Below are positions 612 to 18,165 of a DNA stretch of 64,000 nt, in pieces. The stretch is from positions 620,001-684,000 of the forward strand of contig NZ_OY782767.1 in NCBI RefSeq assembly GCF_963678245.1, in the 5' to 3' direction. The first letter of the stretch is position 1; every line of letters starts with the position of its first letter. The position numbers and the translations under genes are program-made. The notes below the pieces were generated by a model. That model did not search any database. It saw only the letters and a program-made list of their open reading frames with translations, and was not told the DNA's origin. This DNA comes from an uncultured Sunxiuqinia sp. Its GTDB lineage: Bacteria; Bacteroidota; Bacteroidia; Bacteroidales; Prolixibacteraceae.

Positions 612-2876
612 ATGAAACAAACCAACTATCAACTTTTTGATTTTATGGATTTCGATCCGGCAATGTCTGGAAGGGAGATTTTATGGAAGGCTTGTGCTCC
701 GGTATCATTGGAGGTTGATGGAACAGATGTGGTGTTCGAAATTCCATTTCAGAAACAAAAAGTTTCGAATGATATTGAACCCGATAAAGAAACTCCACGA
801 AAAATTTATTCGCTTCGAATCCGTGCCTACGGATCAAAGATCGTTCGGTTAGCTATTGGTTTTGAAACAGCTGCCATGCCCGATTCAGTGATGTTGGATA
901 TGCATCCGGAACTCCAGCTTAATCCGCTTCATGTCGAAAAAACGGACAAAGAATGGCTAATTAAGGATGCTCGCGGAGTTTTGAAAGCTTCGTTAAATCG
1001 TCAGCCGATAGAATTGGACTTTTGGAGCGATTTGGTTCCGGCACCGGAAGAAACTCTTGATTTGAAGCTGTATCCTGATGGAATAAAGGAAGTTAAATTA
1101 AGTGCTTACGATCAGTTCTTTCCGGCGCGCCACGATGCCTATGCATTAGCCGTTGTTGAAGATAATGGTAAGTTCGATCGAACAACCCTGTCTTTTCTCG
1201 CGCAGCCTGATGAGAAATTTGTTGGTTCAGGTGAACGGTTCTCCAAATTGGATTTGTCAGGACAAACATTTCAGCTAAAAAATCAGGACGGGCAGGGAGT
1301 CAATAACCGACGGACTTATAAGAATGTACCCTTTCTGATGTCCAGTCGGATGTATGGAATATTTATGCACACTTCGGCTCACGGGAAATTATCAGTAACC
1401 GATCATTCTACTCGCTCGGTGCAATTGCTGGTAGAAGAGCCGGCGATTGATGTTTTTCTGATTGGGGGAGATGAGCCCGAAGAAATTTTAAAAGGCTATC
1501 GTCAACTAACAGGTTTTCCGACCATGCTTCCAAAATGGAGTTTCGGTACCTGGATGAGCCGGATGACCTATTTTTCGGAAGAGGAAGTAACTGAAATTTG
1601 TAATCGCCTACGGAAGGAAGACTTCCCCTGCGATGTCATTCATTTGGATACGGGGTGGTTTAGAACTGATTGGTTGTGTGAGTGGAAATTTAATCCGGAA
1701 CGTTTTCCTGATCCGAAACGATTTGTACAGAATTTGCGCAACGATGGTTACAAGGTAAGTTTGTGGCAAATGCCCTATATTGCTGCCGAAGCGGAACAAC
1801 TTGAAGAGGCACACGACAATAATTACATGTGTAAAGTGAACGAAGTTAAGCAGCAGGGTGGCTCAAATTTCAGCGCATTAGATTATGCGGGCACTATCGA
1901 TTTTACCTACCCCAAAGCTGTTGAATGGTATAAAGAATTGCTGAAGGAGCTACTCGAAATGGGAGTGGTTTGTATTAAAACTGACTTTGGCGAAGACATT
2001 CATATGGACGCAGATTACCATGCCATGTCGCCCGATAAGTTGAACAATTTATATGCATTGTTTTATCAAAAAGCAGCGTATGAAATAACCAAAGAAGTAA
2101 CTGGCGATGGCATTGTTTGGGCGCGTTCCGGTTGGGCTGGTTGTCAGCGTTATCCGTTACATTGGGGTGGCGATTCGGCTTGCTCGTGGGATGGCTTGGC
2201 CGGTTCGTTAAAGGGAGGTTTGCATATTGGCCTCTCCGGATTTGGCTTTTGGAGTCACGATGTTCCCGGTTTTCATGGTGTGCCGAATTTTATGAACTCA
2301 GTGGTTCCTGACGATTTATACGTGCGTTGGACTCAGTTCGGCGTATTCTCGTCGCACCTGCGTTATCATGGAACGTCCAAGCGTGAGCCATACGAATATC
2401 CGGCAATTTCAGGAATTGTTCGCAAGTGGCTGAAACTTCGTTACGCCTTAATTCCATACTTGCTGGAGCAAAGTGAAAAAACAACACAAACCGGTTTCCC
2501 TGTGCTTCGAGCTTTGATCTTTCATCACCCAAAAGACAAAATGTGCTGGCATATTGATGATCAGTATTATTTCGGAGATGATTTTATGGTTGCTCCGGTT
2601 ATGAATCGTGAGAATAAGAGAGATGTGTATGTGCCTGAAGGAGAATGGGTTAATCTGTTTTCGGGCGAACTTACTCAAGGTAATCGTTGGTTGAATGATT
2701 TTGAGTGCCCATTGGATGAAATGCCGGTGTGGGTGAAAAAAGGAGCACAGATTTCAGTTTATCCACACCATGTATCCAACACCGATGAAATTGATTTAGC
2801 AAAGACCAAAAAACTCGTTTTTGCTGAAACTTATACCGGAATTGTGAATAGTATCCTGGCGGATTTATTGAAATAG
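612..2876 (+). CDS. GH31 alpha-xylosidase-like glycosidase (YicI type)
   Basis: A 754-residue glycoside hydrolase family 31 enzyme. It carries the family nucleophile motif KTDFGE with Asp458 and the acid/base motif HWGGD with Asp521, followed by FGFWSHDVPGF and the SSHLRYHG segment seen in YicI-type alpha-xylosidases. Length is close to E. coli YicI (772 residues). No signal peptide is visible, so it probably acts in the cytoplasm on short oligosaccharides. The ATG at 612 is preferred; the frame extends three bases to a TTG. It opens the 17-gene + strand run, with a 113-base gap to the next gene. Exact substrate specificity within GH31 (xylose, glucose or another sugar) cannot be read from the motifs. 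Confidence 0.85.
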   Translation: MKQTNYQLFDFMDFDPAMSGREILWKACAPVSLEVDGTDVVFEIPFQKQKVSNDIEPDKETPRKIYSLRIRAYGSKIVRLAIGFETAAMPDSVMLDMHPELQLNPLHVEKTDKEWLIKDARGVLKASLNRQPIELDFWSDLVPAPEETLDLKLYPDGIKEVKLSAYDQFFPARHDAYALAVVEDNGKFDRTTLSFLAQPDEKFVGSGERFSKLDLSGQTFQLKNQDGQGVNNRRTYKNVPFLMSSRMYGIFMHTSAHGKLSVTDHSTRSVQLLVEEPAIDVFLIGGDEPEEILKGYRQLTGFPTMLPKWSFGTWMSRMTYFSEEEVTEICNRLRKEDFPCDVIHLDTGWFRTDWLCEWKFNPERFPDPKRFVQNLRNDGYKVSLWQMPYIAAEAEQLEEAHDNNYMCKVNEVKQQGGSNFSALDYAGTIDFTYPKAVEWYKELLKELLEMGVVCIKTDFGEDIHMDADYHAMSPDKLNNLYALFYQKAAYEITKEVTGDGIVWARSGWAGCQRYPLHWGGDSACSWDGLAGSLKGGLHIGLSGFGFWSHDVPGFHGVPNFMNSVVPDDLYVRWTQFGVFSSHLRYHGTSKREPYEYPAISGIVRKWLKLRYALIPYLLEQSEKTTQTGFPVLRALIFHHPKDKMCWHIDDQYYFGDDFMVAPVMNRENKRDVYVPEGEWVNLFSGELTQGNRWLNDFECPLDEMPVWVKKGAQISVYPHHVSNTDEIDLAKTKKLVFAETYTGIVNSILADLLK

Positions 2877-2989
2877 AATATGGATTGCGAAGAAAAAAAT
2901 AGAAATAAAAAACAACCAATAACCGATTTCCAGAGGCACTTGAATTTATAGATACATCTGGAAATTGAAACTTAGAACTCGAAACTAAA

Positions 2990-4054
2990 ATGAATACCTG
3001 GAAAGAAAACATAGATGAATCAAAGCAGAATTTCCTCAATTGGTGGGACCAAAAGGGAATTATTCTGAATATGTGGGAGCACCTGCAAAAAGACGGAGCA
3101 CCACACGCTGACATTCCAAAACCGGCTGATGCCAAGGATTTGAAACAATACTGGTTCGATCCGGTTTGGCGTGCTGAAAATCTCAATTACCAACTGTCAC
3201 GGAGTTCTTTTAAGGCTGATATTATGCCCATTGCCAATACCCACCTAGGGCCGGGTTCGTTGGCCGCACTAATGGGAGCAGAGCTGGAAGGTGGAGATGA
3301 TACCATCTGGATTAGGCACAAAGAAGGTATTGATATGAACCTGATGTTTGATGAAACTGCACCGGCTTGGAAACTGCACATGGATCTGCTGAACGAGTGC
3401 AAAAAGCGTTCAAATGGAAACTATTACGTTGGGTGCCCCGACTTGGTTGAAGGGCTGGATGTGTTGGCCAGTATTAAGGGAACACAAGACCTGCTGATGG
3501 ATATGATTATGCAGCCGGAGGAATTGGAAGTGCAACTTCAGCAGGTGAACGATGTCTATTTTCAGGCTTTCAACAAAATTTACGATGTTATTCAGGAAGA
3601 TGGAGAAATGGCTTATTGCTACTTTTCGATTTGGGCCCCGGGAACGGTCTCAAAAGTACAGTCCGATATCTCGATCATGATTTCGGAGGAAGACTACATT
3701 CGTTTTGTATTGCCTTACATCAAAGAGCAATGTCAGAATATTGATTACACGTTGTATCATTTGGATGGAGTGGGAGCACAACGACACCTGGATGCCATTT
3801 TGAGCATTGACGAATTGAATGCCATTCAGTGGACTCCCGGGGTGGGCGAACCACAAGGTGGCGATCCTTGCTGGTACGATTTGTACAAGCGAATTCTTGC
3901 CGGCGGAAAATCAATTATGGCCAACTGGGTGACTTTGGACGAATTGGAGCCTCTGATTGATAATATTGGAACAGATGGTTTGCACATCAATGTTGATTTC
4001 AAATCAGAGAAGGATATTGATGCAGCCTTAAAAATTGTAGATAAATATAGATAG
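2990..4054 (+). CDS. UroD-fold protein, putative methyltransferase-like
   Basis: A 354-residue protein of the uroporphyrinogen decarboxylase/MtaA/MetE superfamily, the group often labelled 'UroD/cobalamin-independent methionine synthase family'. Recognisable features are the YHLDG motif at residues 256-260, then HLDAILSI and IQWTPGVG (about 266-286), and a tryptophan- and aspartate-rich N-terminus. In zinc-dependent methylcobamide:thiol methyltransferases this position reads HxCG; here the Cys is Asp (H257-L-D259-G), so a canonical zinc-thiolate site is absent. Its function is unknown. Its place beside sugar enzymes and, further down, a complete corrinoid module suggests it might bind a methylated substrate or be a non-methyltransferase sugar enzyme of the same fold. 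It is not a haem-pathway HemE. Confidence 0.65.
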   Translation: MNTWKENIDESKQNFLNWWDQKGIILNMWEHLQKDGAPHADIPKPADAKDLKQYWFDPVWRAENLNYQLSRSSFKADIMPIANTHLGPGSLAALMGAELEGGDDTIWIRHKEGIDMNLMFDETAPAWKLHMDLLNECKKRSNGNYYVGCPDLVEGLDVLASIKGTQDLLMDMIMQPEELEVQLQQVNDVYFQAFNKIYDVIQEDGEMAYCYFSIWAPGTVSKVQSDISIMISEEDYIRFVLPYIKEQCQNIDYTLYHLDGVGAQRHLDAILSIDELNAIQWTPGVGEPQGGDPCWYDLYKRILAGGKSIMANWVTLDELEPLIDNIGTDGLHINVDFKSEKDIDAALKIVDKYR

Positions 4055-4119: not shown

Positions 4120-5199
4120 ATGTTGAAGATAGGAATTTTAGGATTGGGGGAAGGACGGAGTACAATGTCTGCTGTCCTGAATAGCGCAAAATGGGAGTTG
4201 AAAACTGTTTGCGACTTAAACATAGATCTGTGTAAACAGCGGGCTAAAGAGTTCGATTTTCATAATTACACGACTAATTTAGAAGAGATGTTGAGTGATC
4301 CTGAGATTGATGTTGTTGGTATTTATACTCCTGATCATTTACATGCCACGCACATAAAAATGGCGCTTTCTCATGGGAAGCATGTGGTTTGCACAAAACC
4401 ATTGCTCGATGATTTGGTGGAAGCGGTGAGCTTACTGGAGCTGAGCTATAAAGTTGGCAAACGAGTATTTGTGGGACAAAGCTCCCGCTTTTTTGAGCCG
4501 ATGAAAAAGCAGCGACTTGATTTTGAAAATGGAGCGATAGGAGAGCTTGTTACCGTTGAGGCACACTATAATGCTGACCACCGCTGGTTTTTAGGCAAAG
4601 GTTGGTCGTTGCAGGATAGTTTCAAGTGGTTGTTTGGTGGACTGAGTCACCCGGTAGATTTTATACGCTGGTACATGCCCGAAATTGAGGAAGTTATGGG
4701 TTATGGCATGTTAAGTCCGAATGGGGTAGCAGGAGGATTGAAAAACCAAGATACCATGCACTTTATTTTTAAAGCCAAAGATGGACGTATCGCACGAGTA
4801 AGTGGATCGTATTCAGGACCGGTTCAACCGGCAATTCGCGAGAGTGAAATGAGCTGTGTCCTTCGTGGAACGGAAGGTTGCAGCCAAGGCGACTACATGG
4901 ATTTACGATACACTATTGCTAATAAAAATGGGGAGGACAAGCAAATCACATTTGATGATCAGCTGAAATACTACTTCCGGTTTGAAGGGAAGAGCCACCA
5001 CGCTGGTGAATACAATAATTATTTGGAGCATTTTGCCGACAGCATTGAAAAAGGTTTCGTCGCCTATCCGGATTTAAGAGAAGGAATTGGTACGGTGGCT
5101 TTGCTAAAAACAATGGAGAAAACACTGGCTTCGGGAAAACCAGAGAAAGTACAAGATACCATTGACGAATACGGCCTTGCGTCATTTCTGAATCCATAA
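4120..5199 (+). CDS. Gfo/Idh/MocA family oxidoreductase
   Basis: A 359-residue NAD(P)-dependent sugar/polyol dehydrogenase-like protein. The N-terminal Rossmann motif GILGLGEG (residues 4-11) is followed by the IYTPDHLHATH segment and CTKPLL, the family's catalytic-lysine motif (usually EKP, here TKP). The conserved histidine/aspartate region is present as GLSHPVDFIRW. These enzymes oxidise or reduce sugar hydroxyls or open glycosidic bonds through a keto intermediate. It lies 65 bases after the UroD-fold gene and 31 before a PhyH-type oxygenase, and probably shares their transcript. The substrate is not known. Confidence 0.85.
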   Translation: MLKIGILGLGEGRSTMSAVLNSAKWELKTVCDLNIDLCKQRAKEFDFHNYTTNLEEMLSDPEIDVVGIYTPDHLHATHIKMALSHGKHVVCTKPLLDDLVEAVSLLELSYKVGKRVFVGQSSRFFEPMKKQRLDFENGAIGELVTVEAHYNADHRWFLGKGWSLQDSFKWLFGGLSHPVDFIRWYMPEIEEVMGYGMLSPNGVAGGLKNQDTMHFIFKAKDGRIARVSGSYSGPVQPAIRESEMSCVLRGTEGCSQGDYMDLRYTIANKNGEDKQITFDDQLKYYFRFEGKSHHAGEYNNYLEHFADSIEKGFVAYPDLREGIGTVALLKTMEKTLASGKPEKVQDTIDEYGLASFLNP

Positions 5200-5230: not shown

Positions 5231-5974
5231 ATGAGTACAATTATTACCAAAGAACAGGTTGAGCAGTATAAGCGCGACGGCTTCGTGATTTTGCGTAACG
5301 TAATTTCACAGGAGATGATTCAAAAGATCCAGGGTGAATGCGAACGTTTCATCAAGGAGAAACATGCTGAGATGGACGCCAAAGGGGTCGAAGTTGATGA
5401 GATCAACCACAAAGGGAAAAGGTATTTCATTGCGATGAAAAACAAATCAAGCCAACCGATGCAGGAGCTTTTGTTTGGAAAAGAAATGGAAGAAATTACC
5501 CGAAGTATTCTGGGTGATGATGTGTATCTGTTTTTAGAACAATATGTGGTAAAAGCTGCCGATAAGGGGATGAAATTTGCCTGGCATCAGGATTCAGGCT
5601 ATGTGAAAGAAAAGCATAATCCGTATTTGTCGTGCTGGTTGCCATTGGACGATGTAAACGAAGAGAATGGAACCGTATATTTATTAACTTACGACGAAGC
5701 TGGAACAAGAGAACGGATTGATCATTTTCTTGAGGAAGGAACAAACGATATGATCGGATACGCGGGTGATAACCCTGGAACTTCGGCAATTCTGGAAAAG
5801 GGTGATATTGCACTTTTCTCAAGTGTTTGCTTTCACCGAAGTGGATCGAACAACACCGATAAGTCCAGAAGAGTGCTGCTGATGCAATATTCTGATCAGC
5901 CCATTTTAAAGGATGATGGAAGTCCGTTATACTTGGCTGATCCATTCCTGGTAAATGGTAAATTACAAAAGTAG
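5231..5974 (+). CDS. PhyH-type Fe(II)/2-oxoglutarate dioxygenase
   Basis: A 247-residue phytanoyl-CoA dioxygenase-family protein. The iron-binding facial triad is visible as H119-x-D121 (in AWHQDSGY) and H202 (in CFHRSGSN), and the 2-oxoglutarate-binding arginine is Arg213 or Arg214. The family hydroxylates small molecules, consuming O2 and 2-oxoglutarate. In this locus it could hydroxylate a sugar or remove an O-methyl group oxidatively as formaldehyde; both are inferences. It ends four bases before the ATG chosen for the next gene, which points to one operon. Confidence 0.8.
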   Translation: MSTIITKEQVEQYKRDGFVILRNVISQEMIQKIQGECERFIKEKHAEMDAKGVEVDEINHKGKRYFIAMKNKSSQPMQELLFGKEMEEITRSILGDDVYLFLEQYVVKAADKGMKFAWHQDSGYVKEKHNPYLSCWLPLDDVNEENGTVYLLTYDEAGTRERIDHFLEEGTNDMIGYAGDNPGTSAILEKGDIALFSSVCFHRSGSNNTDKSRRVLLMQYSDQPILKDDGSPLYLADPFLVNGKLQK

Positions 5975-5978: not shown

Positions 5979-6854
5979 ATGATGATTAAAAATACAAATG
6001 ATGGAACTCAAAAACAGCCTTATTTAAGGCTGGATATAAACTATGGAAATTGTAGCGATTTGCCTTCTTTTTCGGCAGGTCCTCGCGGCAACGATGAGGA
6101 AAAACACAATGCCATTAAAGCAGCCGGATACGCAGGTGTGCAAGATGGCGATCCTGATTTATGTAAGAAACTGGGGTTGGAACTAACCGCACATGCTCGG
6201 ATTAACAAGGTAGGTGAGCTGGATGATCTGCTTCCTAAGTGGAAAAAGGAAAACTTCAATTGCGCCACCCTGCATGTTGGTTGGGGAATGGAAAGTGATA
6301 AGGAGATCGATGAGCTGGTTCAATATGTATTGGATATGTCAGAAAAAAACGATTTTCCAATTTATTTTGAAACCCATCGGTCGACCATTACTCAGGATAT
6401 GCAGCGAACGGTTGAACTCATTAAGCGGTTTCCCGAAATTCGTTTTAATGGGGATTTCTCGCATTGGTACACCGGGCAGGAAATGGTGTACGGCGGAATT
6501 GAAAACAAATGGGATTTTATAGCTTCGGTTTTCGATCGTGTTCGATTTATGCATGGTCGTATTGGAAACCCTGGTAGTATTCAGGTTGATATTGCCGATG
6601 GTAAAAATCAGATTTATGTCGACCATTTCAAAGAGATGTGGACACGTGCTTTCGCCGGATTTCTGAAAACGGCGAAACCTGGCGACTACCTCTGCTTTAC
6701 GGTTGAATTGTTGCAAGCTGATATCTTTTACGCTCGGCAAATTCAAAATGCGCAGGGAGAACGGGTTGAAGAGGGTGACCGTTGGCAACAAGCATTGCTT
6801 TACGGACAAATTGCCAAAGAGTGCTGGGAAGAAGCTCAAAAAAGAATTGGATAA
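5979..6854 (+). CDS. Sugar phosphate isomerase/epimerase-like TIM barrel
   Basis: A 291-residue protein of the xylose isomerase-like TIM-barrel family. Candidate metal ligands occur in the usual order: Glu in YFETHR, Asp/His in GDFSHW, His in FMHGRIG and Glu in FTVELLQ. No signal peptide is present. I place the start at the ATG at 5979, just after the upstream stop at 5974; a longer ATG at 5955 would overlap the dioxygenase gene by 20 bases. These enzymes isomerise or epimerise ketoses, often without phosphate. The substrate cannot be told from sequence. Confidence 0.75.
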   Translation: MMIKNTNDGTQKQPYLRLDINYGNCSDLPSFSAGPRGNDEEKHNAIKAAGYAGVQDGDPDLCKKLGLELTAHARINKVGELDDLLPKWKKENFNCATLHVGWGMESDKEIDELVQYVLDMSEKNDFPIYFETHRSTITQDMQRTVELIKRFPEIRFNGDFSHWYTGQEMVYGGIENKWDFIASVFDRVRFMHGRIGNPGSIQVDIADGKNQIYVDHFKEMWTRAFAGFLKTAKPGDYLCFTVELLQADIFYARQIQNAQGERVEEGDRWQQALLYGQIAKECWEEAQKRIG

Positions 6855-6899: not shown

Positions 6900-8489
6900 A
6901 TGGACAATATCAATAGTTTCCTAAACCCTCTTGATTTTATCATTGTCGGCCTTTATCTGGTCGTTTTAATCGGAATTGGGTATTGGGTAAGTTTTGTGAA
7001 AAAAGAAGAAGGAGGAAGTGACGAGAACTTGTTTTTGGCCGGTCACTCATTGGGTTGGCCAAGTATCGGTTTAACCATGTGGGGAACCAATGTTGGTCCT
7101 TCGATGTTGATTGCTTCTGCAAGTATCGGTTATACCACCGGTTTAGTTGCCGGTAATTTTGCATGGTACGCATTTGTTTTCATCTTTTTGCTGGCCACCG
7201 TTTTTGCACCACGCTATCTTGGTGCCAATGTGCAAACGCTCCCCGAATTTATGGGTCGGCGTTTTGGCCAGTCTACCCGAAGTATCCTGGCTTGGTACAC
7301 ACTGGTCACCATCCTTATTTCGTGGCTGGCACTCACCTTGTTTGCCGGCGGAATTTTAGTAGGACAAATCTTAGCCCTCCCATTGTGGCTATCGGTTGTT
7401 ATTTTAGTAGTAATTGCTGCTTTCTTCACAATTGCCGGTGGTTTGAAGGCCATTGCATACACCAATGTTTTTCAGATGATTTTGCTAATTGCCGTTTCGC
7501 TGATTTTGACAGTGGTTGGTGTTGTCAAAGCAGGTGGGCCGATGGAGATTTTTCACAATACCCCGGGCAGCTACTGGAACTTGCTTCTGCCCATGGATGA
7601 TGAGAACTACCCATGGCTCGCTATTGTGCTCGGATATCCCATTATGGGAGTTTGGTTTTGGTGTACTGATCAATCGATGGTACAATCGGTGCTTGGTGCT
7701 AAAAGTTTAAAGCATGGACAGCTCGGTGCTAACTTTACAGGGTGGTTGAAAATATTGGATGTCGCACTGTTTATTATTCCCGGTATTACTTGTTTTGTGC
7801 TATTCCCCGGCTTGAAAAATCCGGACGAGGCTTATATGACTATGGTAACACGATTGCTGCCATCGGGAATGATTGGAATGGTGATGGCCGTGTTAATTGC
7901 TGCTTTGGTAAGTACCATCGACTCGGCATTGAACTCATTGAGTACTGTTTTCACCATGGATATTTATGTGAAAAATTACAAGCCTCAGGCAACACAAAAG
8001 GAGATTGTATCGATTGGACGTATCGTTACCGTTTTAGGTGCTTTTATAGCCGTTTTCCTGGCTGTGGCCATCGATAGCATAAAAGGATTGAACCTTTTTG
8101 ATGTTTTCCAGGCCATATTAGGATTCATTGCACCTCCAATGTCAGTCGTGTTTTTATTCGGAGTACTTTGGAAGAAAGCCACCCGAAGAGCGGCAAACTT
8201 TACACTTTCAGTTGGTACTTTACTTAGTCTGGGGACTGGTGTTACGTATTTATGGATTTTCCCTAAAGACAAATATGATTTCTGGCCTCACTTTTTGTTA
8301 TTGTCCTTCTTTATTTTTATTGTACTGGCCTTTCTGGCTTTCCTGATTTCTTACTTCGATAAAAAATCAGAAGATCAAAATGTGTTGGACTATGGTGAAT
8401 TACACACACCTTCAAAGAAAGTATGGATTTTGTGGGGTGCCTTAATTGTAGTGATGGTTGGTTTGTACATCTTATTCAACGGACATTAA
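6900..8489 (+). CDS. Sodium:solute symporter (SSS family)
   Basis: A 529-residue inner-membrane protein with a dozen or more hydrophobic segments and the SSS-family pattern: DFIIVGLYL in the first helix, the NLFLAGHSLGWPSIGLTM stretch, and a later ALVSTIDSALNS segment that matches the sodium-site helix. Members import sugars, myo-inositol, sialic acid or similar solutes with Na+. It is the only transporter in the locus, and no SusC/SusD pair is present within the window, so the imported substrate is probably a monosaccharide or small glycoside. Confidence 0.88.
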   Translation: MDNINSFLNPLDFIIVGLYLVVLIGIGYWVSFVKKEEGGSDENLFLAGHSLGWPSIGLTMWGTNVGPSMLIASASIGYTTGLVAGNFAWYAFVFIFLLATVFAPRYLGANVQTLPEFMGRRFGQSTRSILAWYTLVTILISWLALTLFAGGILVGQILALPLWLSVVILVVIAAFFTIAGGLKAIAYTNVFQMILLIAVSLILTVVGVVKAGGPMEIFHNTPGSYWNLLLPMDDENYPWLAIVLGYPIMGVWFWCTDQSMVQSVLGAKSLKHGQLGANFTGWLKILDVALFIIPGITCFVLFPGLKNPDEAYMTMVTRLLPSGMIGMVMAVLIAALVSTIDSALNSLSTVFTMDIYVKNYKPQATQKEIVSIGRIVTVLGAFIAVFLAVAIDSIKGLNLFDVFQAILGFIAPPMSVVFLFGVLWKKATRRAANFTLSVGTLLSLGTGVTYLWIFPKDKYDFWPHFLLLSFFIFIVLAFLAFLISYFDKKSEDQNVLDYGELHTPSKKVWILWGALIVVMVGLYILFNGH

Positions 8490-9447: not shown

Positions 9448-10110
9448 ATGAGACAAATTTCAATCGTTATTTTATTCGTATTTGGATTCGGAGCGTACGG
9501 AGCTACTAATTTACCACAAAAGCACGAAGATGAAGCTTATTGGGAAGTTGTTAGCAAACGCGCCGAAAAGATTGTAGAAACACTGGACATTGATGTTGAA
9601 GAAAAATTCAATCGGGTACGCGATCGAATTGCTCAACAGTATTATGATTTAAATGGTGTTCACGATCAGTTAGATGCTACTGTAAAAACCTTGAAAGAAG
9701 AAGCAAAGGATGAGGAACAGGTGAAAGAGAAAATTGAAGAACTGACAGAAAAGGCTGATCAGAAATTGGACAGTTTGCACAACAGCTATTTGAAAAACCT
9801 GGCCAAAGATCTGAAGCCAGAGCAAATCGAGAAAGTCAAGGACGGAATGACATATAGTGTTTTCCCTCGTACCTATCAAGCTTTTCAGGAAATGATTCCT
9901 CAGCTTACCGAAGATCAAAAGAAATTTATTTATCAGGCTCTTTATGATGCCCGGGAAAAAGCCATGGATGCGGGATCTTCAAAAGCAAAACATGCTTGGT
10001 TTGGAAAATATAAAGGACGCATCAATAATTACCTTTCAAAAGAAGGCTACGACTTGAATAAAGAGAGTAAAGATTGGCACAAACGCATGGAAGATGCTAA
10101 AAAGAAGTGA
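9448..10110 (+). CDS. DUF3826-like exported helical protein
   Basis: A 220-residue protein with a clear signal peptide (residues 1 to about 19, ending near GAYGA), then a charged, mostly helical sequence including a long lysine/glutamate-rich coiled stretch around residues 60-110 and a C-terminal WHKRMEDAKKK. It resembles the DUF3826 family of secreted Bacteroidota proteins found in polysaccharide loci; I assign that from memory of the pattern, not from a search. No catalytic motif is visible. It is probably periplasmic. It sits between the lipoprotein TIM barrel and the corrinoid module. Confidence 0.55.
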   Translation: MRQISIVILFVFGFGAYGATNLPQKHEDEAYWEVVSKRAEKIVETLDIDVEEKFNRVRDRIAQQYYDLNGVHDQLDATVKTLKEEAKDEEQVKEKIEELTEKADQKLDSLHNSYLKNLAKDLKPEQIEKVKDGMTYSVFPRTYQAFQEMIPQLTEDQKKFIYQALYDAREKAMDAGSSKAKHAWFGKYKGRINNYLSKEGYDLNKESKDWHKRMEDAKKK

Positions 10111-10836: not shown

Positions 10837-12183
10837 ATGAACGGATTAAAATTGTTGGAAAAAGCATTTCGGATTGAAGAGGTAGAGAGAATTCCATGGG
10901 TTCCTTTTGTTGGGGTGCACGCTGGAAATTTAATTGGTGTTGATGCTGAAGCCTTCCTGCGCAGTTCGAAGCATATTGTAGATGGAATTGATAAGGCTAT
11001 TAAATTGTATAAGCCCGATGGAATTCCGGTGGTTTTTGATTTACAGATTGAAGCAGAAATCCTTGGATGTAAATTGGCTTGGAGCAAAGAGAATCCTCCG
11101 GCAGTTATTTCACATCCGTTGAACGAAGGAGTTGAACTTAGTTTGTTAAAATTGCCAACCGAAAACGACGGAAGAATACCAGTTGTTTTAGAGGCCACAA
11201 GAGAACTACGGAAAAAGCATCCCGAGTTGGCTTTGTATGGTTTAATTACCGGGCCTTTTACATTGGCGCTTCACTTGTTGGGGACCGATATTTTTATGAA
11301 GCTTTTCGAAGATCCTGACTATGTGAATGAACTGATGGAGTTTTGTGCACTGGTTGGTATTAAACATGCCGAATTGTTGCTGGATGCCGGGTGCGATGTG
11401 ATTGCCGTTGTCGATCCAATGACGAGCCAGATTGATCCGATGTCATTCGAGACTTTTGTAAGTCCATTCGTTACGAAAATATTTGATTTTGTTCGTTCAA
11501 AGAAAAAATATAGTTCGTTCTTTGTTTGTGGTCATGCACAACAAAATATTGAAATAATGTGCGACTGTAAACCAGATAATATTTCGATTGATGAGAATAT
11601 TCCGTTAGATTTTGTCAAAGAAACAGCGTTGGCTAAAGGAATTAGTTTTGGTGGAAATATGAAACTGACCAGCGTGCTTTTGCTTGGAAACGAAATGGAC
11701 TCGAAAAAGGAAGCGGTTAATTGTTTGGACCTGGGAGGAAAGAAAGGTTTCATTTTGGCTCCGGGATGTGATTTGCCAATGGATACGCCGGTTGCGAACT
11801 TACAAGCGGTTACAGAATTGGTTTATGACGACTATGTCCAGCAGGTGGCGCGTGAAATGGAACACAGTTCCTCCTTGCAACCACTGAGCTTGGACGGTCA
11901 CTTCGAAGAAGGCAAAGTAGTGGTTGACATTATCACACTCGACTCTGCTTCGTGCGCTCCTTGCCAATATATGGTAGAGGCAGTAAAACAGGCTTCGATC
12001 GATTTTGGAGACAAGGTGATTGTCAACGAGCATAAAATTAAGGATGTAGAAGGAATTCAGATGATGATGGCCTTAGGTGTACAAAATGTGCCGACGACCT
12101 GTATCAACGGAAACGTGGAATTTATCAGTCAAATTCCAAGAAAAACTGAAATTGAAAAAGCAATTAAAAAGGCGATGAATTAA
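10837..12183 (+). CDS. UroD/MtaA-type methyltransferase fused to thioredoxin domain
   Basis: A 448-residue fusion. Residues 1 to about 340 match the MtaA/MtbA/CmuA branch of the UroD superfamily, which moves methyl groups between a corrinoid protein and a thiol or other acceptor at a zinc site. The usual HxC...C ligands appear as F229-V-C231-G-H233 and Cys311 (in APGCDLP), so both cysteines are kept but the first histidine is replaced by Phe, with a His two residues later. Residues about 355-448 form a thioredoxin-like domain with C373-A-P-C376 and a cis-Pro loop NVPTTC near Pro419. The last A of its TAA stop is the first base of the next ATG. The acceptor (a thiol or tetrahydrofolate) is unknown. 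Confidence 0.85.
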   Translation: MNGLKLLEKAFRIEEVERIPWVPFVGVHAGNLIGVDAEAFLRSSKHIVDGIDKAIKLYKPDGIPVVFDLQIEAEILGCKLAWSKENPPAVISHPLNEGVELSLLKLPTENDGRIPVVLEATRELRKKHPELALYGLITGPFTLALHLLGTDIFMKLFEDPDYVNELMEFCALVGIKHAELLLDAGCDVIAVVDPMTSQIDPMSFETFVSPFVTKIFDFVRSKKKYSSFFVCGHAQQNIEIMCDCKPDNISIDENIPLDFVKETALAKGISFGGNMKLTSVLLLGNEMDSKKEAVNCLDLGGKKGFILAPGCDLPMDTPVANLQAVTELVYDDYVQQVAREMEHSSSLQPLSLDGHFEEGKVVVDIITLDSASCAPCQYMVEAVKQASIDFGDKVIVNEHKIKDVEGIQMMMALGVQNVPTTCINGNVEFISQIPRKTEIEKAIKKAMN

Positions 12184-13088
12184 TGAGCATTCCATTGCAC
12201 TTAATAACCGGTTTTTTAGGAAGTGGCAAAACATCATTTCTCGATCATTTTCTGAAAAAGACCGGCACAAAAGAAAGTATAGCGATTATTCAAAATGAAT
12301 TTTCTCCTGTCAATATTGACGGGAGAAAGTTTTATGAAGACGCAAATTTTCAGGTGCTAGAAATTAATAATGGTTCGGTGTTTTGTGTGTGTCTGCTTGG
12401 TTCGTTTATTCAATCGCTAAATGAATTTGTTGAAAAATATAAGCCGGATCTGTTGCTCATGGAAGCATCGGGTTTGTCTGATCCCATTGGTGTTGGGCAA
12501 ATTTTTCAGTCATCCCAATTAAAGGGTAAAGTTTATTTAGAACATGTTTGGTGTTTGGTTGATTCTTTCAATTTTAACCGGATACCGGCTCTAAAAGTAC
12601 GAATGGATCACCAGCTGCGGAGTGCAGATACCATTATCCTAAATAAAACAGACTTGCTAAAAGGAAGTACCGACGATCTCTTAACGAAAATTAAGGCGAT
12701 CAATCCGTTTGCAAAGATAGTTGAGGGTAAGTACGGGCAAGTTGATATTATCGATTACAAAAGAGCACTCAATTTATTTCCTGAAGATCAAGCTTCGGCT
12801 TTAGGGCGACCGGATATTGGATCTGTTGTAATTCGTTCAACTCGTTCTATCGCTCCCGAAAACTTAACTCAGTTCTTGAATCAGCTAAAGGCAGATTGCC
12901 TCCGATGCAAGGGTTTTGTCAAGTTGAAAACTGGCAAGTCAGCTTTCGTTCAAGGGGTTTTAGATTCGGTTACGATACACGAAGTCGATAATTTCTCGGG
13001 CGCTGGAGATCTTGTTTTAATTGGTAATTTTGAGGATGAAAAGAACCTTCAGCTTATGTTTGACGAATTTTGTAAAGATGAACATTGA
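12183..13088 (+). CDS. G3E-family (CobW/COG0523) GTPase
   Basis: A 301-residue P-loop GTPase. Walker A is GFLGSGKT (residues 10-17), a QNEF motif follows at 37-40, the switch region EASGLSDP is at 94-101 and the guanine-specificity motif NKTD is at 154-157. The metal-binding motif, commonly CxCC in metallochaperone COG0523 proteins, is C68-V-C70-L here. Members deliver or guard metals (Zn, Co, Ni) for client enzymes. The gene overlaps its upstream neighbour by one base and its downstream neighbour by 11 bases, so it belongs to the corrinoid module. It may load zinc into the fused methyltransferase or cobalt/corrinoid into the carrier; this is inference. Confidence 0.85.
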   Translation: MSIPLHLITGFLGSGKTSFLDHFLKKTGTKESIAIIQNEFSPVNIDGRKFYEDANFQVLEINNGSVFCVCLLGSFIQSLNEFVEKYKPDLLLMEASGLSDPIGVGQIFQSSQLKGKVYLEHVWCLVDSFNFNRIPALKVRMDHQLRSADTIILNKTDLLKGSTDDLLTKIKAINPFAKIVEGKYGQVDIIDYKRALNLFPEDQASALGRPDIGSVVIRSTRSIAPENLTQFLNQLKADCLRCKGFVKLKTGKSAFVQGVLDSVTIHEVDNFSGAGDLVLIGNFEDEKNLQLMFDEFCKDEH

Positions 13089-13764
13089 AAGAAGTTTTAC
13101 ATTTGACGAGCTGGAAATTGATCCGAAGGAGATTATAACAACTTTAGGATACACCGAGGAGTCGTTTTTTGAACCATTCCCAACTTATTTGGCTCAGGCG
13201 TTTGAGTGTTGTAAACAACTGAATGATATAAAAGGGGCGTACCGAATTCTCAAGTTAGATGAGTCTTGCTCTGATGAAAAAAAAGTATGCGTTCGGGATT
13301 TGCAATTTCACGTTGGACGAACGATTCGGAAAGAGCTAAACGGCGCGGAAAATATTGCATTCTTTGTATGTACTGCCGGAGCGGAGATTAGTCAGCTTGC
13401 TGATAAGTTGCTGAAGGGCGAAGACCCCGTTCTTGGCTACGTGTACGATGTAATTGGAAGTGCCATTGCGGAGGCTGTTGGCGATAAAATACAAGAAGCT
13501 ATCAGCCTGAGTGAACATGAAGCAGGGAAAAGAATTACAAATAGATATAGTCCGGGATATTGTCATTGGAATGTGACCGATCAGCATAAATTATTTTCCC
13601 TTTTCGGAGAAGCTGTGTGCGGTGTAAAGCTGACACCATCGGCTTTAATGCATCCCGTGAAATCAATTAGCGGGCTAATTGGGATTGGTGAAAATGTTGA
13701 GTTTAACGATTATCAATGCAATCTTTGTCAACTTGAAAATTGTGTTTATCGAGATAAACATTAG
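13078..13764 (+). CDS. MetH activation-domain-like corrinoid reactivator
   Basis: A 228-residue protein related to the S-adenosylmethionine-binding reactivation domain of B12-dependent methionine synthase. The hallmark RYSPGY (156-161, MetH RPAPGY) is followed by DQHKLFSLF and HPVKSISGLIGIG (192-204). The C-terminus has C214-x-x-C217-x4-C222-x-YR, a small cysteine cluster common in stand-alone versions. It would repair oxidised cob(II)alamin by reductive methylation with SAM, needing an external electron donor such as flavodoxin. I chose the ATG at 13078, which overlaps the GTPase gene by 11 bases; a longer frame from 13021 lies inside that gene. Confidence 0.85.
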   Translation: MNIERSFTFDELEIDPKEIITTLGYTEESFFEPFPTYLAQAFECCKQLNDIKGAYRILKLDESCSDEKKVCVRDLQFHVGRTIRKELNGAENIAFFVCTAGAEISQLADKLLKGEDPVLGYVYDVIGSAIAEAVGDKIQEAISLSEHEAGKRITNRYSPGYCHWNVTDQHKLFSLFGEAVCGVKLTPSALMHPVKSISGLIGIGENVEFNDYQCNLCQLENCVYRDKH

Positions 13765-13815
13765 CTTGTTCTAAAAAAGCAAGGTTAATTTTTTGCAATC
13801 TAAAATTTGAAAAAT

Positions 13816-14751
13816 ATGAAAAAAGGATATTGGATATTGGCAATGCTGTTTATCGCGTTAGTGGCCTTCAAACAAGAAAAAGAATATTACGTATTTAGCA
13901 CCTTCAGAGAGCCGGCAACCGATGGTTTGTTTTTAGCTTACAGCGAAGATGGTTATCATTGGAATGATTTGGGAGGACCATACTTGGCGCCAGAAGTTGG
14001 GACTCAAAAAGTCATGCGCGACCCTTCTATTGTGCAAGGGCCTGACGGTACTTTTCATTTTGTATGGACTTCATCATGGCGAGATGATTTAGGAATTGGT
14101 TATGCAAGCTCAAAAGACTTGATCAACTGGTCGGAGCAAAAACATATTTTGCTGATGGATCATGATACTTCTACTGTAAACGTTTGGGCTCCCGAGCTTT
14201 TTTATGACGACGAAAAGGAAGAATATATTATTGTTTGGGCATCAACAGTGCCCTACAAATTCGAAAAGGGAATTGAAGATGAGAGAAATAATCATCGACA
14301 ATACTATGTCACAACCAAAGATTTTAAAACGTTTTCAGAAACTAAACTATTTCTCGATCCCGGTTTTAGCGCAATTGATGGGACGATTGTGAAGCGCGCT
14401 CCAAACGACTATGTGTTGGTGTTTAAAGACAATACGCGTCCAATGCGAAATATAAAGGTTGCCTTTGCTGATTCTCCGGTTGGACCTTTTCATGATATCT
14501 CCGGCCCATTTACGAAGTTTAAAACTGAAGGACCAACTGTCGCAAAAGTGGGCGATCAGTACTTGATTTATTTCGATTCGTATGGCGACTATGAATATGG
14601 AGCAGTGAGTACAACCGATTTTGAAACGTTTAAGAATATTTCGGATCAAGTTTCGCTTCCCGAAGGGCATAAGCATGGAACCATTTTTAAAGTAAAGCAG
14701 CAAATTATTGATCAGCTTTTGGCGAATCAGCCTAATTTGAAAAAGGAATAA
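13816..14751 (+). CDS. GH43-type glycosidase, exported or membrane-tethered
   Basis: A 311-residue five-bladed propeller glycosidase of the GH43 type, with an N-terminal hydrophobic segment (residues about 5-18) that is a signal peptide or anchor. Family landmarks are DGLFLAYSEDGYHW, RDPSI (68-72), WAPEL (around Glu127), AIDGTIV and the acid motif TEGP with Glu238. GH43 enzymes release arabinose, xylose or galactose side chains. The upstream in-frame TTG at 13807 is rejected in favour of the ATG at 13816. It lies 51 bases after the reactivator gene and 12 before the mutarotase gene. Substrate is not predictable. Confidence 0.75.
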   Translation: MKKGYWILAMLFIALVAFKQEKEYYVFSTFREPATDGLFLAYSEDGYHWNDLGGPYLAPEVGTQKVMRDPSIVQGPDGTFHFVWTSSWRDDLGIGYASSKDLINWSEQKHILLMDHDTSTVNVWAPELFYDDEKEEYIIVWASTVPYKFEKGIEDERNNHRQYYVTTKDFKTFSETKLFLDPGFSAIDGTIVKRAPNDYVLVFKDNTRPMRNIKVAFADSPVGPFHDISGPFTKFKTEGPTVAKVGDQYLIYFDSYGDYEYGAVSTTDFETFKNISDQVSLPEGHKHGTIFKVKQQIIDQLLANQPNLKKE

Positions 14752-14763: not shown

Positions 14764-15165
14764 ATGAAATTTAAGAGATACTGCAAAACATTGGCTTTAG
14801 AAGATAATTTTCGGTTAATTGAAGACTATAAAAAGATTCATGCTCCGGGCGCTTGCTGGACTGAAATTACAGAAGGCATGAAAGAAGTGGGGATTCTGGA
14901 TATGGAAATCTATATACACGGAAGCCAGTTGTTCATGATTATGGATACGATTGCTGATTTTGATCATGAACAGGCGATGGCCGACTTGGCCAAAAAACCA
15001 CGACAAGGTGAATGGGAGGCTTATGTTTCCCAATTTCAGCAAACATCAGAGGATGCCTCAGCTGATGAGAAGTGGCAATTGATGGAACGAATTTTTGAGA
15101 TCGATCAGGAGAACAGTTATCCGGCAATTGAAGGACAGCTAAAAGAAACATATTCCAATGAGTAA
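14764..15165 (+). CDS. L-rhamnose mutarotase family protein
   Basis: A 133-residue single-domain protein of the RhaM/COG3254 family, with KRYCKTLAL, the IHAPGACW histidine motif, GILDMEIYIHG, FMIMDT and PRQGEWEAYV. RhaM interconverts alpha and beta anomers of L-rhamnose, and relatives act on L-fucose. The last 8 bases overlap the start of the aldo/keto reductase gene, so the two are translated together. In context it would supply the right anomer of a 6-deoxy sugar to the dehydrogenase that follows. Confidence 0.85.
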   Translation: MKFKRYCKTLALEDNFRLIEDYKKIHAPGACWTEITEGMKEVGILDMEIYIHGSQLFMIMDTIADFDHEQAMADLAKKPRQGEWEAYVSQFQQTSEDASADEKWQLMERIFEIDQENSYPAIEGQLKETYSNE

Positions 15166-16201
15166 AAATAAGCAACTAGGAAATACGGGAATTGAATGCC
15201 CATCAATTATATATGGCACCAGTTTTTTAGGAAATCTTTACCGAGAACTTTCTGATGATGAGAAACTTAGCTTGATGAAAGAGTGGTTTCGAGTTAGCGA
15301 GGGGAAGGTGATGATTGACAGTGCTGGTAAGTATGGTGCAGGGTTGGCTTTGGAAGTGATTGGAAAGGGACTTGAAAAACTTGGTATCGATCCATCAACG
15401 ATTACAATCAGTAATAAATTGGGTTGGTACCGCATTCCGTTAACGACTGACGAGCCCACTTTTGAAAAGGGAGCCTGGGCGAACTTAAAATTTGATGCGG
15501 TACAAAAAATAAGCTATTCCGGAATACTGGAGTGTTGGGAGCAGGGCTGCGAACTTTTAGGAAAAACCTATAAATCGGAAGTTGTTTCCGTACACGATCC
15601 TGACGAATATTTGGCCGCTGCAAGTAGCAACGAAGATCGTCAAGTCAGAGTAAACGATATTTTGGAAGCTTACAAAGCACTGTTCGAATTGAAAGAAAAA
15701 GGTGAAGTAAAAGCTGTTGGAATTGGCTCTAAAGATTGGTTGGTTATTAAAGAGCTGTACCAGAATGTGAAGTTTGATTGGGTCATGTTTGCTAATAAAT
15801 TTACACTTTATCATCATCCAAAAGAGATTGTAGATTTCATTGAACAACTGGATCAGGATGGAGTTGGAATTATTAATTCGGCTATTTTTAATGCCGGGTT
15901 CATTACTGGGGGCGAATATTTTGACTATCGAGTTCTTGACCCTAGCGATCCGGCAGATAGGCATTTGTTTAAATGGCGCGAGAGGTTCTTTGCAATTTGC
16001 GACAAACACAACATTCAGCCTGGCGATGCTTGTTTGAAGTTCGCTTTATCGGCACCGCAAATTAGTGCCGTGGCACTTAATCCAAGTAAGCCCAAGCGTA
16101 TGGCAAACAACAAAGAAGTGCTGAAACGAGAATTTCCCAATGAGTTTTGGGAGGAACTAAAGAAAGAAGGAATTATTGATTCAGATTACAAATATTTGTA
16201 A
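15158..16201 (+). CDS. Aldo/keto reductase, L-fucose dehydrogenase-like
   Basis: A 347-residue aldo/keto reductase. The catalytic tetrad is visible in order: Asp in MIDSAGKYG with its Tyr, Lys in ISNKLGW and His in VSVHDPDE. The pattern IECPSIIYGTSFLGNLY near the N-terminus and LEVIGKGL match the branch that includes bacterial L-fucose/D-arabinose 1-dehydrogenases. It would oxidise a free sugar at C1 to the lactone. Overlap with the mutarotase gene and an 11-base gap to a fuconolactonase-type gene support that role. The exact sugar remains inferred. Confidence 0.8.
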   Translation: MSKNKQLGNTGIECPSIIYGTSFLGNLYRELSDDEKLSLMKEWFRVSEGKVMIDSAGKYGAGLALEVIGKGLEKLGIDPSTITISNKLGWYRIPLTTDEPTFEKGAWANLKFDAVQKISYSGILECWEQGCELLGKTYKSEVVSVHDPDEYLAAASSNEDRQVRVNDILEAYKALFELKEKGEVKAVGIGSKDWLVIKELYQNVKFDWVMFANKFTLYHHPKEIVDFIEQLDQDGVGIINSAIFNAGFITGGEYFDYRVLDPSDPADRHLFKWRERFFAICDKHNIQPGDACLKFALSAPQISAVALNPSKPKRMANNKEVLKREFPNEFWEELKKEGIIDSDYKYL

Positions 16202-16212: not shown

Positions 16213-17040
16213 ATGATTATCGATACACATCATCATTTATGGAATTACGATCCGGTTGAATTTGACTGGATTGATGATGACATGGCAACAATTCGCCGGA
16301 GCTTTTTGCCTGAAGATTTGAAAGCTACAATAGATTCGACCGGAGTAAGCGGCGTTGTAACAGTGCAAGCTCGGCAAATTGTTGAGGAAACCGAATGGTT
16401 ACTTTCGTTGGCTGCCCAAAATGATTTTATGAAAGGGATAGTGGGATGGTTGCCACTGGCGGCTGATAATGTTAGTGAGCTGCTTCAGAAATACTCTGAA
16501 AATAAATGGCTGAAAGGAGTTCGTCACGTAGTTCAGGGTGAACCAGATCCAGAGTTTATTTTAGGGGAGGCATTTAACCGAGGAATTTCATTACTGAAGG
16601 ATTACCAGTTGGTGTACGATATTTTGATATTGGAACATCAGTTGCCAAATACAATCAAGTTTGTCGATCAACATCCTGATCAGGTTTTTGTGTTAGATCA
16701 CATCGCCAAGCCTAAAATCAAACTGAATGAGATTGAACCCTGGGCTAAAAATATGAAGGAGTTGGCAAAGCGGGAGAATGTTTCTTGCAAGATCAGTGGA
16801 ATGGTTACCGAAGCTGATTTTAAGAAATGGAACCCAGAGCAGCTGCAGCCCTATTTTGCTGTAGTATTAGATGCTTTTGGCCCCTCTCGATTAATGTATG
16901 GATCGGACTGGCCGGTTTGTTTGGTGGCTACAAAATATTCAGATTGGCTGCAATTGGTTAAGCAGGTTCTATTGAGCTGTAGTGATACCGAAAAAGAGCA
17001 GATTTATTATAAAAATGCAGTGGAAACATATCAACTTTAA
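16213..17040 (+). CDS. L-fuconolactonase-type amidohydrolase
   Basis: A 275-residue amidohydrolase-superfamily protein of the COG3618 group. It begins with IDTHHHLWNY, carrying the HxH metal/substrate motif, followed by FDWIDDDM, GVRHVVQGE, LDHIAKP and the catalytic Asp in YGSDWPVC. Members hydrolyse sugar lactones such as L-fucono-1,5-lactone and L-rhamnono-lactone. The gene follows the predicted sugar 1-dehydrogenase by 11 bases, so the two could run sugar to lactone to aldonate. No sugar-acid dehydratase was found downstream. Confidence 0.82.
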   Translation: MIIDTHHHLWNYDPVEFDWIDDDMATIRRSFLPEDLKATIDSTGVSGVVTVQARQIVEETEWLLSLAAQNDFMKGIVGWLPLAADNVSELLQKYSENKWLKGVRHVVQGEPDPEFILGEAFNRGISLLKDYQLVYDILILEHQLPNTIKFVDQHPDQVFVLDHIAKPKIKLNEIEPWAKNMKELAKRENVSCKISGMVTEADFKKWNPEQLQPYFAVVLDAFGPSRLMYGSDWPVCLVATKYSDWLQLVKQVLLSCSDTEKEQIYYKNAVETYQL

Positions 17041-17133
17041 ATAGAAAAAATGACCGTAAAAAAAACTCATATTCTTTTAAAGAAAGCATAATGAGAAATA
17101 TACAGATTCGCATAACATAAACAATATAAAAGA

Positions 17134-18165
17134 ATGAAAGCAATTGAAATAGTAAAACCCGGCGAGATGCAAGTCGTTGATCGCAATATGCCGCAGGTGG
17201 GTAACGAAGATATTTTGTTGAAAATAAAATATGTAGGATTTTGTGGATCAGATTTGAGCACCTATCTCGGAAAAAATCCGTTGGTGCAATATCCACGAAT
17301 TCCGGGGCACGAAATATCAGCCATTATTCAGAAAGTTGGGAAAGATGCTCCTGCGAAATTTAAAGCTGGTCAAAAGGTAACGGTTGTTCCTTATACCAAT
17401 TGTGGGCAATGTTCTTCATGCAAACAGAAACGTTTTAATGCATGCCGTTACAACGAAACTCTGGGTGTGCAGCGCGATGGCGCGATGGCTGACTATATTG
17501 TAGTACCTTGGCAAAAAGTGTTGGTGGATGATCAATTGACTGATATTCAACTTGGATTGGTAGAACCGTTGACTGTTGGCTTTCACGCCATTGATAACGC
17601 ACAGGTAACCGATATTGATACTGTTATGGTATTTGGTTGTGGAATGATTGGAAGCGGTGCGATTGTTCGTGCTCACTTGCGTGGAGCAACCGTTATTGCT
17701 GTTGATATTGATGATCAGAAATTGCAAGTTGCGAAGAAACTCGGTGCGACTCATCTGATCAATTCGGTGAAACAAAATCTGCACGACGAGCTTGTCAGAA
17801 TTACAAATGACAATGGCCCAACAGTTGTTATTGAAGCAGCTGGCAGTCCAGTTACTTATCGTTCGGCTATTGAGGAAGTAGCTTTTGCCGGACGCGTGGT
17901 TTGTATCGGTTATGCCAAGGAAGATGTGGATTTCCCAACTAAACTCTGGGTGCAGAAGGAATTACAGATTTTTGGTTCCCGAAATGCAAATCCTTCCGAT
18001 TTCGAGGCTGTAATTAGGTATCTAAAAAATAGTCAACTCGATAGCCAATTGCTGATTTCAAAAACCGTTCAGCCAGATGAAGCTTCACAGGCGATGAGAG
18101 AATGGTCGGAAGCTCCGGGCGCTATCCTAAAGATTTTGGTTGAATTTGGAGGATTGAAAAGCTAA
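17134..18165 (+). CDS. Zinc-dependent medium-chain alcohol dehydrogenase
   Basis: A 343-residue MDR-family dehydrogenase. Catalytic zinc ligands are Cys37 (FCGSD) and GHE at 58-60; the four structural-zinc cysteines are Cys90, Cys93, Cys96 and Cys104 in the NCGQCSSC region. The nucleotide-binding motif is VFGCGMIGSGA. Such enzymes oxidise polyols or keto-deoxy sugar acids. In L-fucose-type pathways a similar dehydrogenase acts late, on the 2-keto-3-deoxy acid, so it may complete the route here. It is the last gene of the + strand locus, and the next gene runs the other way. Confidence 0.85.
   Translation: MKAIEIVKPGEMQVVDRNMPQVGNEDILLKIKYVGFCGSDLSTYLGKNPLVQYPRIPGHEISAIIQKVGKDAPAKFKAGQKVTVVPYTNCGQCSSCKQKRFNACRYNETLGVQRDGAMADYIVVPWQKVLVDDQLTDIQLGLVEPLTVGFHAIDNAQVTDIDTVMVFGCGMIGSGAIVRAHLRGATVIAVDIDDQKLQVAKKLGATHLINSVKQNLHDELVRITNDNGPTVVIEAAGSPVTYRSAIEEVAFAGRVVCIGYAKEDVDFPTKLWVQKELQIFGSRNANPSDFEAVIRYLKNSQLDSQLLISKTVQPDEASQAMREWSEAPGAILKILVEFGGLKS

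Follow-up and report, generated by a model that had tools for sequence, protein, structure and literature searches.

What does a set of corrinoid (vitamin B12) methyl-transfer genes do in an operon of sugar catabolism? The question is raised by a stretch of 64,000 nucleotides (the window) from an uncultured Sunxiuqinia sp. of the Prolixibacteraceae. Here 17 open reading frames (ORFs) follow one another on the + strand, from 609/612 to 18165, with intergenic gaps of at most 113 bases. Genes were named by Pfam and NCBIfam profile scans of the window proteins. ORFs and scans bear out the first-pass annotation, made from the sequence alone, in which 17 co-directional genes were said to join glycan catabolism with a corrinoid set, and Pfam confirms the corrinoid quartet at 10166-13764. 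The genes most at issue are the quartet and a second UroD-fold gene upstream of it:

2990..4054, + strand: U354, UroD-fold protein, proposed substrate:corrinoid methyltransferase (predicted structure, co-occurrence)
10166..10834, + strand: CorP, corrinoid (B12) methyl-carrier protein (Pfam B12-binding and B12-binding_2)
10837..12183, + strand: UroDTrx, MtaA/CmuA-like UroD methyltransferase with a thioredoxin domain (CAPC; Pfam URO-D and Thioredoxin_3)
12183..13088, + strand: G3E (CobW) GTPase, proposed metallochaperone (Pfam cobW and CobW_C)
13078..13764, + strand: MetH activation-domain protein, proposed S-adenosylmethionine (SAM)-dependent reactivator of Co(II)-CorP (Pfam Met_synt_B12; ORF opens at 13021)

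Our answer is that the quartet is likely to be a shared corrinoid hub, which would demethylate O-methylated sugars freed from polysaccharides. In the best reading of the comparative data, exchangeable UroD sugar demethylases would feed this one hub, and the methyl group would pass to homocysteine or another thiol. The four families first proposed for the quartet were right, with two corrections: the UroD protein is fused to thioredoxin, and the reactivator is a member of the MetH activation-domain family rather than an ATP-dependent activator of the RACE/RACo type. CorP has the DxHxxG motif (GDLHDIGKN), and its relatives in the PDB are 1y80, the trimethylamine and monomethylamine (TMA/MMA) corrinoid proteins and MetH. 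UroDTrx matches PDB entry 4ay7 (E=1e-27) and carries the motif FVCG...C; of the cysteines and histidine that we take to be the MtaA metal ligands, it retains both cysteines and lacks the histidine. The source genome (G000, 4.87 Mb) encodes one close CorP and one UroDTrx, the latter 97% identical to that of Sunxiuqinia indica (Prolixibacteraceae).

Taken singly, the best argument that the substrates are methylated sugars as a class comes from a sample chosen by CorP alone, because sugar genes played no part in its selection. A CorP-only search of 395 genomes of the phylum gave 32 matches, one of them the source genome. Of the other 31 we read the surroundings of the 20 with the highest scores and, for comparison, 18 control windows placed elsewhere on these contigs, two of the contigs being too short for a control. 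UroD genes were found near CorP at 17/20 loci, compared to 1/18 controls; MetH-activation genes at 16/20 and genes for homocysteine S-methyltransferase (HMT) at 11/20, both compared to 0/18. Only one of the 20, L188, carries the window-type set with UroDTrx and G3E. The control that holds UroD genes (L217, G512:C9:5000-24900) has two of them and an SSF symporter gene, about 36 kb from the CorP of the same genome.

Pfam families were then tallied for the co-directional runs at 19 of these loci (L191 omitted); core genes excluded, the runs supplied 86 proteins. URO-D came out 20 times, GH115 and GH43 three times each and GH10 twice; among 86 random control proteins GH2 was found in two, and neither URO-D nor GH115 appeared among the best 25 of 173 families. 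Three loci (L199, L204, L205) share the run GH115-GH43-CorP-HMT followed by UroD, with an activation gene in L204 and L205; GH43 was recognised in L204 by a profile match, in L199 and L205 by an identity of 58-59%. For the genes of 951-994 aa in these loci a SusC label was ruled out by Pfam, which assigns them to GH115. GH115 enzymes cleave (4-O-methyl)-glucuronic acid off xylan, and we regard these runs as a candidate route for 4-O-methylglucuronate from this polymer.

The source genome has another UroD methyltransferase, MtR (G000:C1:218421-219467; URO-D, 83.5 bits), with the motif H-S-C-G...H and no match by phmmer against the PDB. It is encoded about 410 kb from CorP and UroDTrx, in the run GH2-GH106-SASA-DUF5703-MtR-RhaM-RhaT-unassigned-GH78-GH127, where GH106 and GH78 are alpha-L-rhamnosidases and SASA is an esterase. 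MtR is found at 23 places in 21 genomes at a threshold of at least 60% identity. We read 19 of these (17 of the genomes; three of the four omitted are fragments) and found RhaT in 16, RhaM in 8 and GH106 in 8. The first-pass annotation had taken its deoxy-sugar signal from the RhaM, aldo/keto reductase and fuconolactonase genes of the operon; such a signal exists, but for rhamnose it comes mainly from this distant locus. The best-supported substrate class here would be an O-methyl-6-deoxyhexose of the methyl-rhamnose type.

One component had been overlooked at first: U354, too, has a UroD fold. It matches no Pfam or NCBIfam model and nothing in the PDB by phmmer. An AlphaFold prediction from a 12-row alignment gave a best model with a mean predicted local distance difference test (pLDDT) of 85, the four others ranging from 81 to 64. 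The first four PDB matches of the model are human uroporphyrinogen decarboxylase (E 2e-6 to 8e-6), at TM scores of about 0.5-0.6 and a high root-mean-square deviation of 6-10 A. In the 11 U354 loci read besides the window, a GH31 gene adjoins or lies near U354 in 11/11 (64-78% identity to the window's), SSF in 8/11 and GFO in 7/11; an SSF homologue (47%) is also found near a U354-like gene in the planctomycete locus L049. In three genomes (G348, G380, G357) GH31-U354-GFO-SSF-MtR are contiguous, in this order and on one strand, with RhaT within 9 kb of MtR; in one of the three, at L100, one ORF (?309) intervenes. From these runs we take the window's GH31, U354, GFO and SSF to belong with MtR, the hub genes sitting downstream here. 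U354 is a likelier substrate enzyme than UroDTrx. In a tree, which gave long-branch warnings and is a hint only, UroDTrx groups with UroD33, UroD_man and HemE, apart from MtR, UroD11, UroD28 and U354.

Class-wide samples (295 genomes each, at 1e-80 and 1e-40) matched UroDTrx and MtR in the source genome only and were too sparse for co-occurrence, so the analysis was done at family level, on 140 Prolixibacteraceae genomes. Presence was called at E<=1e-80 for UroDTrx, E<=1e-45 for CorP and at least 60% identity for MtR and U354; the Fisher tests ignore kinship among genomes, and MtR spans eight genera. CorP was found in 94 genomes, UroDTrx in 55, MtR in 21 and U354 in 14. All 21 MtR genomes have CorP (Fisher 1e-4) and 20/21 have UroDTrx (9e-9), the remaining one, G341, having CorP with an MtaB/RACo set. 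U354 is accompanied by CorP in 13/14 genomes (0.02), by UroDTrx in 12/14 (3e-4) and by MtR in 12/14 (3e-10); the two without MtR are G437, with CorP and HMT, and G347. More broadly, CorP is present in 66/71 genomes with any UroD match at 1e-20 and in 28/69 without one (1e-11). This genome-scale co-occurrence fits a single module that serves distant loci. In G316 and G437, HMT lies beside CorP and UroDTrx is absent.

A UroDTrx scan over one genome per species (84,980 species) gave 42 loci, mostly in Bacteroidota, with outliers in Planctomycetota and Bacillota. CorP, UroDTrx, G3E and the activation protein occur together in many of them. The grouping of genes is not chance, because the quartet is kept in many Bacteroidota and the GH31-U354-GFO-SSF cassette is kept separately. 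An extra UroD-family gene is present in 14 of the 42 loci, a glycan gene in 19 (by a query set drawn partly from the 42 loci themselves) and HMT in 18. The glycan context differs with the UroD protein: GH38 and an epimerase (AGE) with UroD in L036 and in the separately retrieved L012, GH38 with an epimerase also in L041; RhaT-UroD-RhaM with sulfatases in L022 and L023, with GH29 in L022. In Lutibacter and Mariniflexile (L044, L046, L047, L056, L058) UroD11 stands beside genes for a P450, a ferredoxin-reductase-like protein, an alcohol dehydrogenase (ADH) and an esterase, with GH2/GH105 in four Lutibacter loci and sulfatases in Mariniflexile; the profile check was made for L044, and the ferredoxin parts were named by eye. 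Here a P450 set resembling the 6-O-methyl-galactose demethylase adjoins the corrinoid module, perhaps for oxic and anoxic use side by side. The Clostridia locus L060 has UroDTrx and G3E beside a methyltetrahydrofolate:corrinoid methyltransferase. Many relatives in Draconibacterium and Mariniphaga carry HMT, an AraC regulator, a GntP permease, succinate dehydrogenase and few glycan genes; GntP is nearby in 10/42 loci, mostly of this group, often with succinate dehydrogenase.

Several observations weigh against a hub for sugar demethylation. The first-pass annotation had named modules without sugar genes nearby as a sign that the idea is wrong, and this is partly what is found: 23/42 loci have no glycan gene by our query set, several of them on short contigs. 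The hub model accounts for modules that lie at a distance from sugar genes, as many do, but accounting for them is no proof. The whole sugar set of the window recurs among the 42 loci only in S. indica. HMT seldom shares one of the 42 loci with an extra UroD gene (3 have both), and UroDTrx may therefore lack one uniform role. Among the phylum loci three of 20 (L197, L203, L206) have no UroD, and one of the 18 control windows holds two UroD genes. In the family, five genomes have a UroD match without CorP (G335, G390, G399, G401, G412), two have UroDTrx without CorP at threshold (G394, G401), G347 (86% complete) has U354 and no close CorP, and 28 have CorP and no match to the MtR query at 1e-20. 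Profile scans of the 17 genes found no dehydratase or aldolase to complete a deoxy-sugar acid route. Finally, U354 has a conserved H-L-D-G at the position of the MtaA zinc motif, without the Cys that would bind zinc there. Catalysis is not thereby excluded, because CdmB and the Moorella O-demethylase, both UroD-superfamily methyltransferases, function without zinc, according to PMC13222342.

How might the hub work? A substrate-specific UroD-fold methyltransferase (U354, MtR) would transfer the methyl group from the ether of a methylated sugar to Co(I)-CorP, and the free sugar would enter ordinary catabolism. From CH3-Co(III)-CorP the methyl would be passed to a thiol, most likely homocysteine, via UroDTrx, as gene exchange suggests: in relatives a dedicated HMT replaces UroDTrx or adjoins it. 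Judging from their families, the MetH-activation protein would use SAM to rescue CorP oxidised to Co(II), and metal loading would probably fall to the G3E GTPase. The module would thus resemble a methionine synthase whose folate module is swapped for exchangeable sugar-ether demethylases. From locus to locus CorP stays the same and the UroD substrate enzyme changes with the glycan. The disposal partner changes too: it is UroDTrx, either alone or together with HMT; HMT by itself, as in G316, G437 and many phylum loci; or MtaB plus a RACo-like activase. We infer that the variable UroD proteins are methyl donors to CorP, and UroDTrx and HMT acceptor-side; UroDTrx probably works on the acceptor side or is shared. 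The first proposal, that O-methylated (deoxy-)sugars take a corrinoid route, gains support from comparative genomics, but as likelier substrate enzymes the variable UroD proteins replace UroDTrx. In 17 UroDTrx proteins inspected, a long form of at least 539 aa, in which a second thioredoxin-like domain was recognised by eye, is found at 6/6 HMT loci and 4/11 others, and a short form (448-458 aa) at 7/11 others; the two forms may have two roles. The only PF02574 match in the source genome lies in a MetH-sized frame of 1232 aa, none being in the operon, and the acceptor in this organism is therefore only putative. The reverse direction, methylation of sugars, seems unlikely because the surroundings are catabolic.

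The other genes of the operon, and the regulator beside it, are the following:

1..367, - strand: end of an AraC-type regulator gene (whole gene G000:C1:619381-620367), named by eye, divergent from the operon
612..2876, + strand: GH31 glycosidase, alpha-xylosidase-like (Pfam GH31 domains; PRK10658 480.6 bits, cut-off 606)
4120..5199, + strand: GFO/IDH/MocA oxidoreductase, inositol/levoglucosan/3-keto-glycoside dehydrogenase-like (profile scans)
5231..5974, + strand: PhyH-type Fe(II)/2-oxoglutarate dioxygenase (profile scans)
5979..6854, + strand: TIM-barrel-like sugar isomerase/epimerase candidate, by eye (no Pfam or NCBIfam match; ORF opens at 5955)
6900..8489, + strand: SSF sodium:solute symporter, probable importer (profile scans)
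8504..9412, + strand: xylose-isomerase-like TIM barrel (Pfam AP_endonuc_2; lipoprotein-like signal by eye; ORF opens at 8423)
9448..10110, + strand: DUF3826 protein (profile scan)
13807..14751, + strand: GH43/GH32-like glycosidase, BT_3657-like (profile scans)
14764..15165, + strand: RhaM-family L-rhamnose mutarotase homologue (Pfam rhaM)
15158..16201, + strand: aldo/keto reductase, proposed sugar dehydrogenase (profile scan)
16213..17040, + strand: Amidohydro_2 protein, fuconolactonase-like (NF052480, fucono-1,5-lactonase, 254.2 bits, cut-off 400)
17134..18165, + strand: Zn-dependent polyol/sugar dehydrogenase, Zn-ADH (profile scans)

The xylose-isomerase-like TIM barrel and DUF3826 genes also lie close to the core at Gaoshiqia L021 and at L124. 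Upstream of the operon we identified by eye SusC-like, SusD-like, GH2-like, another glycosidase-like and beta-helix genes and the AraC regulator, and the operon therefore seems to extend a polysaccharide-utilization locus. The window gave no Rfam match at the gathering threshold and no tRNA, and six related loci no Rfam match; there is therefore no evidence of a cobalamin riboswitch.

Which other functions could the quartet have? An unlikely one, though the likeliest of the rivals, is scavenging of methanol from pectin, the module taking the methanol methyl of pectic methyl esters with the UroD proteins as MtaA-like acceptor enzymes. In six relatives (G002, G341, G345, G340, G398, G407) CorP is indeed accompanied by an MtaB-like methanol:corrinoid methyltransferase (412 bits for the L154 protein, cut-off 720; the others 83-93% identical to it by BLAST) and an AcsV/RamA-like activator (294 bits, cut-off 800), and two of these loci (L157, L158) have GH78 rhamnosidase genes nearby. 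Methanol may be the product of such MtaB-type modules, released from sugar methyl, or their substrate, coming from pectin. No MtaB, however, was found in the 17 genes, the 42 UroDTrx loci or the 20 phylum loci; the UroD proteins are many, diverse and locus-specific, and the GH115 and GH38 loci are unrelated to pectin esters.

It is quite improbable that the quartet is merely an alternative methionine synthase or methyl-cycle module, placed among sugar genes by accident. Met_synt_B12 in the window, homocysteine methyltransferase subunits in relatives, CorP-MetHact-HMT runs without nearby UroD (L197, L206) and a split MetH in marine bacteria (PMC12478193) would all agree with it. Against it, a homocysteine methyltransferase gene of MetH size (the 1232-aa frame) is already present in the genome, homologues of the L060 folate methyltransferase are found at 0/20 phylum loci and 0/18 controls (single-query BLAST), and the distribution follows the UroD enzymes of sugar loci.

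Still less probably, the PhyH dioxygenase (5231-5974) demethylates the sugar oxidatively and the corrinoid part serves another methyl donor. PhyH occurs in the operon and near CorP at 4/20 phylum loci (L191, L196, L198, L200) compared to 0/18 controls, sugar demethylation as known so far proceeds by oxidation (P450), and in Lutibacter and Mariniflexile the module has P450 genes next to it; but a PhyH homologue is absent from the 36 MtR, U354 and core loci L094-L129 and from 41/42 UroDTrx loci, S. indica being the exception. Salvage of methyl-sulfur or methyl-selenium, proposed for type 1 mlp gene clusters with which UroD and corrinoid proteins are shared (PMC10418091), is highly improbable, as the 17 genes include no RACE activator and no recognised selenium or sulfur gene, and the neighbours are glycan genes.

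The G3E gene varies between modules. That of the window (12183-13088) reads C-V-C-L, and those of the MtaB-type modules L154 and L157 read CICC; the classic motif is CxCC. All MtaB-type CorP modules L153-L158 carry a G3E GTPase, except L156 where none was seen. The module of L151 (G316, 7689-8593) may be decaying or simplified: next to CorP and HMT its G3E gene falls into two ORFs, and it has no UroDTrx.

How does a corrinoid hub for sugar ethers compare to known systems? With the corrinoid O-demethylases of acetogens (OdmB, VdmB, MtvB), MtoB and CdmB it shares a UroD-superfamily methyltransferase, a separate corrinoid protein and an acceptor enzyme, the first of these by fold or family only (fold for U354, Pfam URO-D for MtR and UroDTrx). 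Those systems act on aromatic or haloalkane substrates, use an ATP-dependent activase and have a folate acceptor, whereas here the context is sugar, the activation domain is of MetH type, and no folate methyltransferase is at the locus, with HMT in relatives. Profile scans of the 17 genes found neither a methyl-corrinoid:tetrahydrofolate methyltransferase nor an ATP-dependent activase (RACE/RACo), a RACo-like protein occurring only in the MtaB-type relatives. Judged on its genes, the system would work as a corrinoid O-demethylase does, yet it lacks two features by which that family is defined. MetH, whole or split, shares its B12 and activation domains with CorP and the Met_synt_B12 protein; the window lacks a PF02574 subunit and a pterin module. 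In the split methionine synthase/glycine betaine demethylase MtgBCDE (PMC12478193), one corrinoid protein likewise joins a donor system to methionine formation; here the donor enzyme is of UroD type and not pfam06253, no pterin subunit was found and the loci are glycan loci. Type 1 mlp clusters also combine UroD methyltransferases with a corrinoid protein. Their UroD proteins are of the Mlp2 and Mlp3 types; unlike the 17 genes they have a RACE activase, they are proposed for methyl-S/Se, and the genera listed for them are obligate anaerobes, 73% Firmicutes (PMC10418091). The P450 6-O-methyl-D-galactose demethylase (Reisky 2018, as cited in PMC12316285; route also in PMC10033563) strips sugar methyl ethers in marine Bacteroidota too, but it needs a monooxygenase and makes formaldehyde; no P450, ferredoxin or ferredoxin reductase was found by profile scans of the 17 genes. 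An anaerobic route of sugar demethylation is termed undiscovered in PMC12316285. A corrinoid route for sugars is not described among the literature matches listed, a coverage outside which most subscription journals lie.

We are somewhat inclined to extend the hub to a general, oxygen-independent O-demethylation of polysaccharide sugars, in which glycan-specific UroD families share one methionine-synthase-like hub and the methyl ethers of algae and plants end up in methionine. Methyl-rhamnose, methyl-mannose, 6-O-methyl-galactose and 4-O-methyl-glucuronate would each have their own family of UroD-fold enzymes. Candidate pairs are MtR with methyl-rhamnose, the UroD of the GH115 loci with 4-O-methylglucuronate and UroD11 with 6-O-methylgalactose. 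If true, a B12 route would give many uncharacterised UroD proteins of glycan loci a function and would tie the use of glycans to the supply of vitamin B12. Anaerobes would gain access to methylated sugars, and the methyl group would be conserved as methionine.

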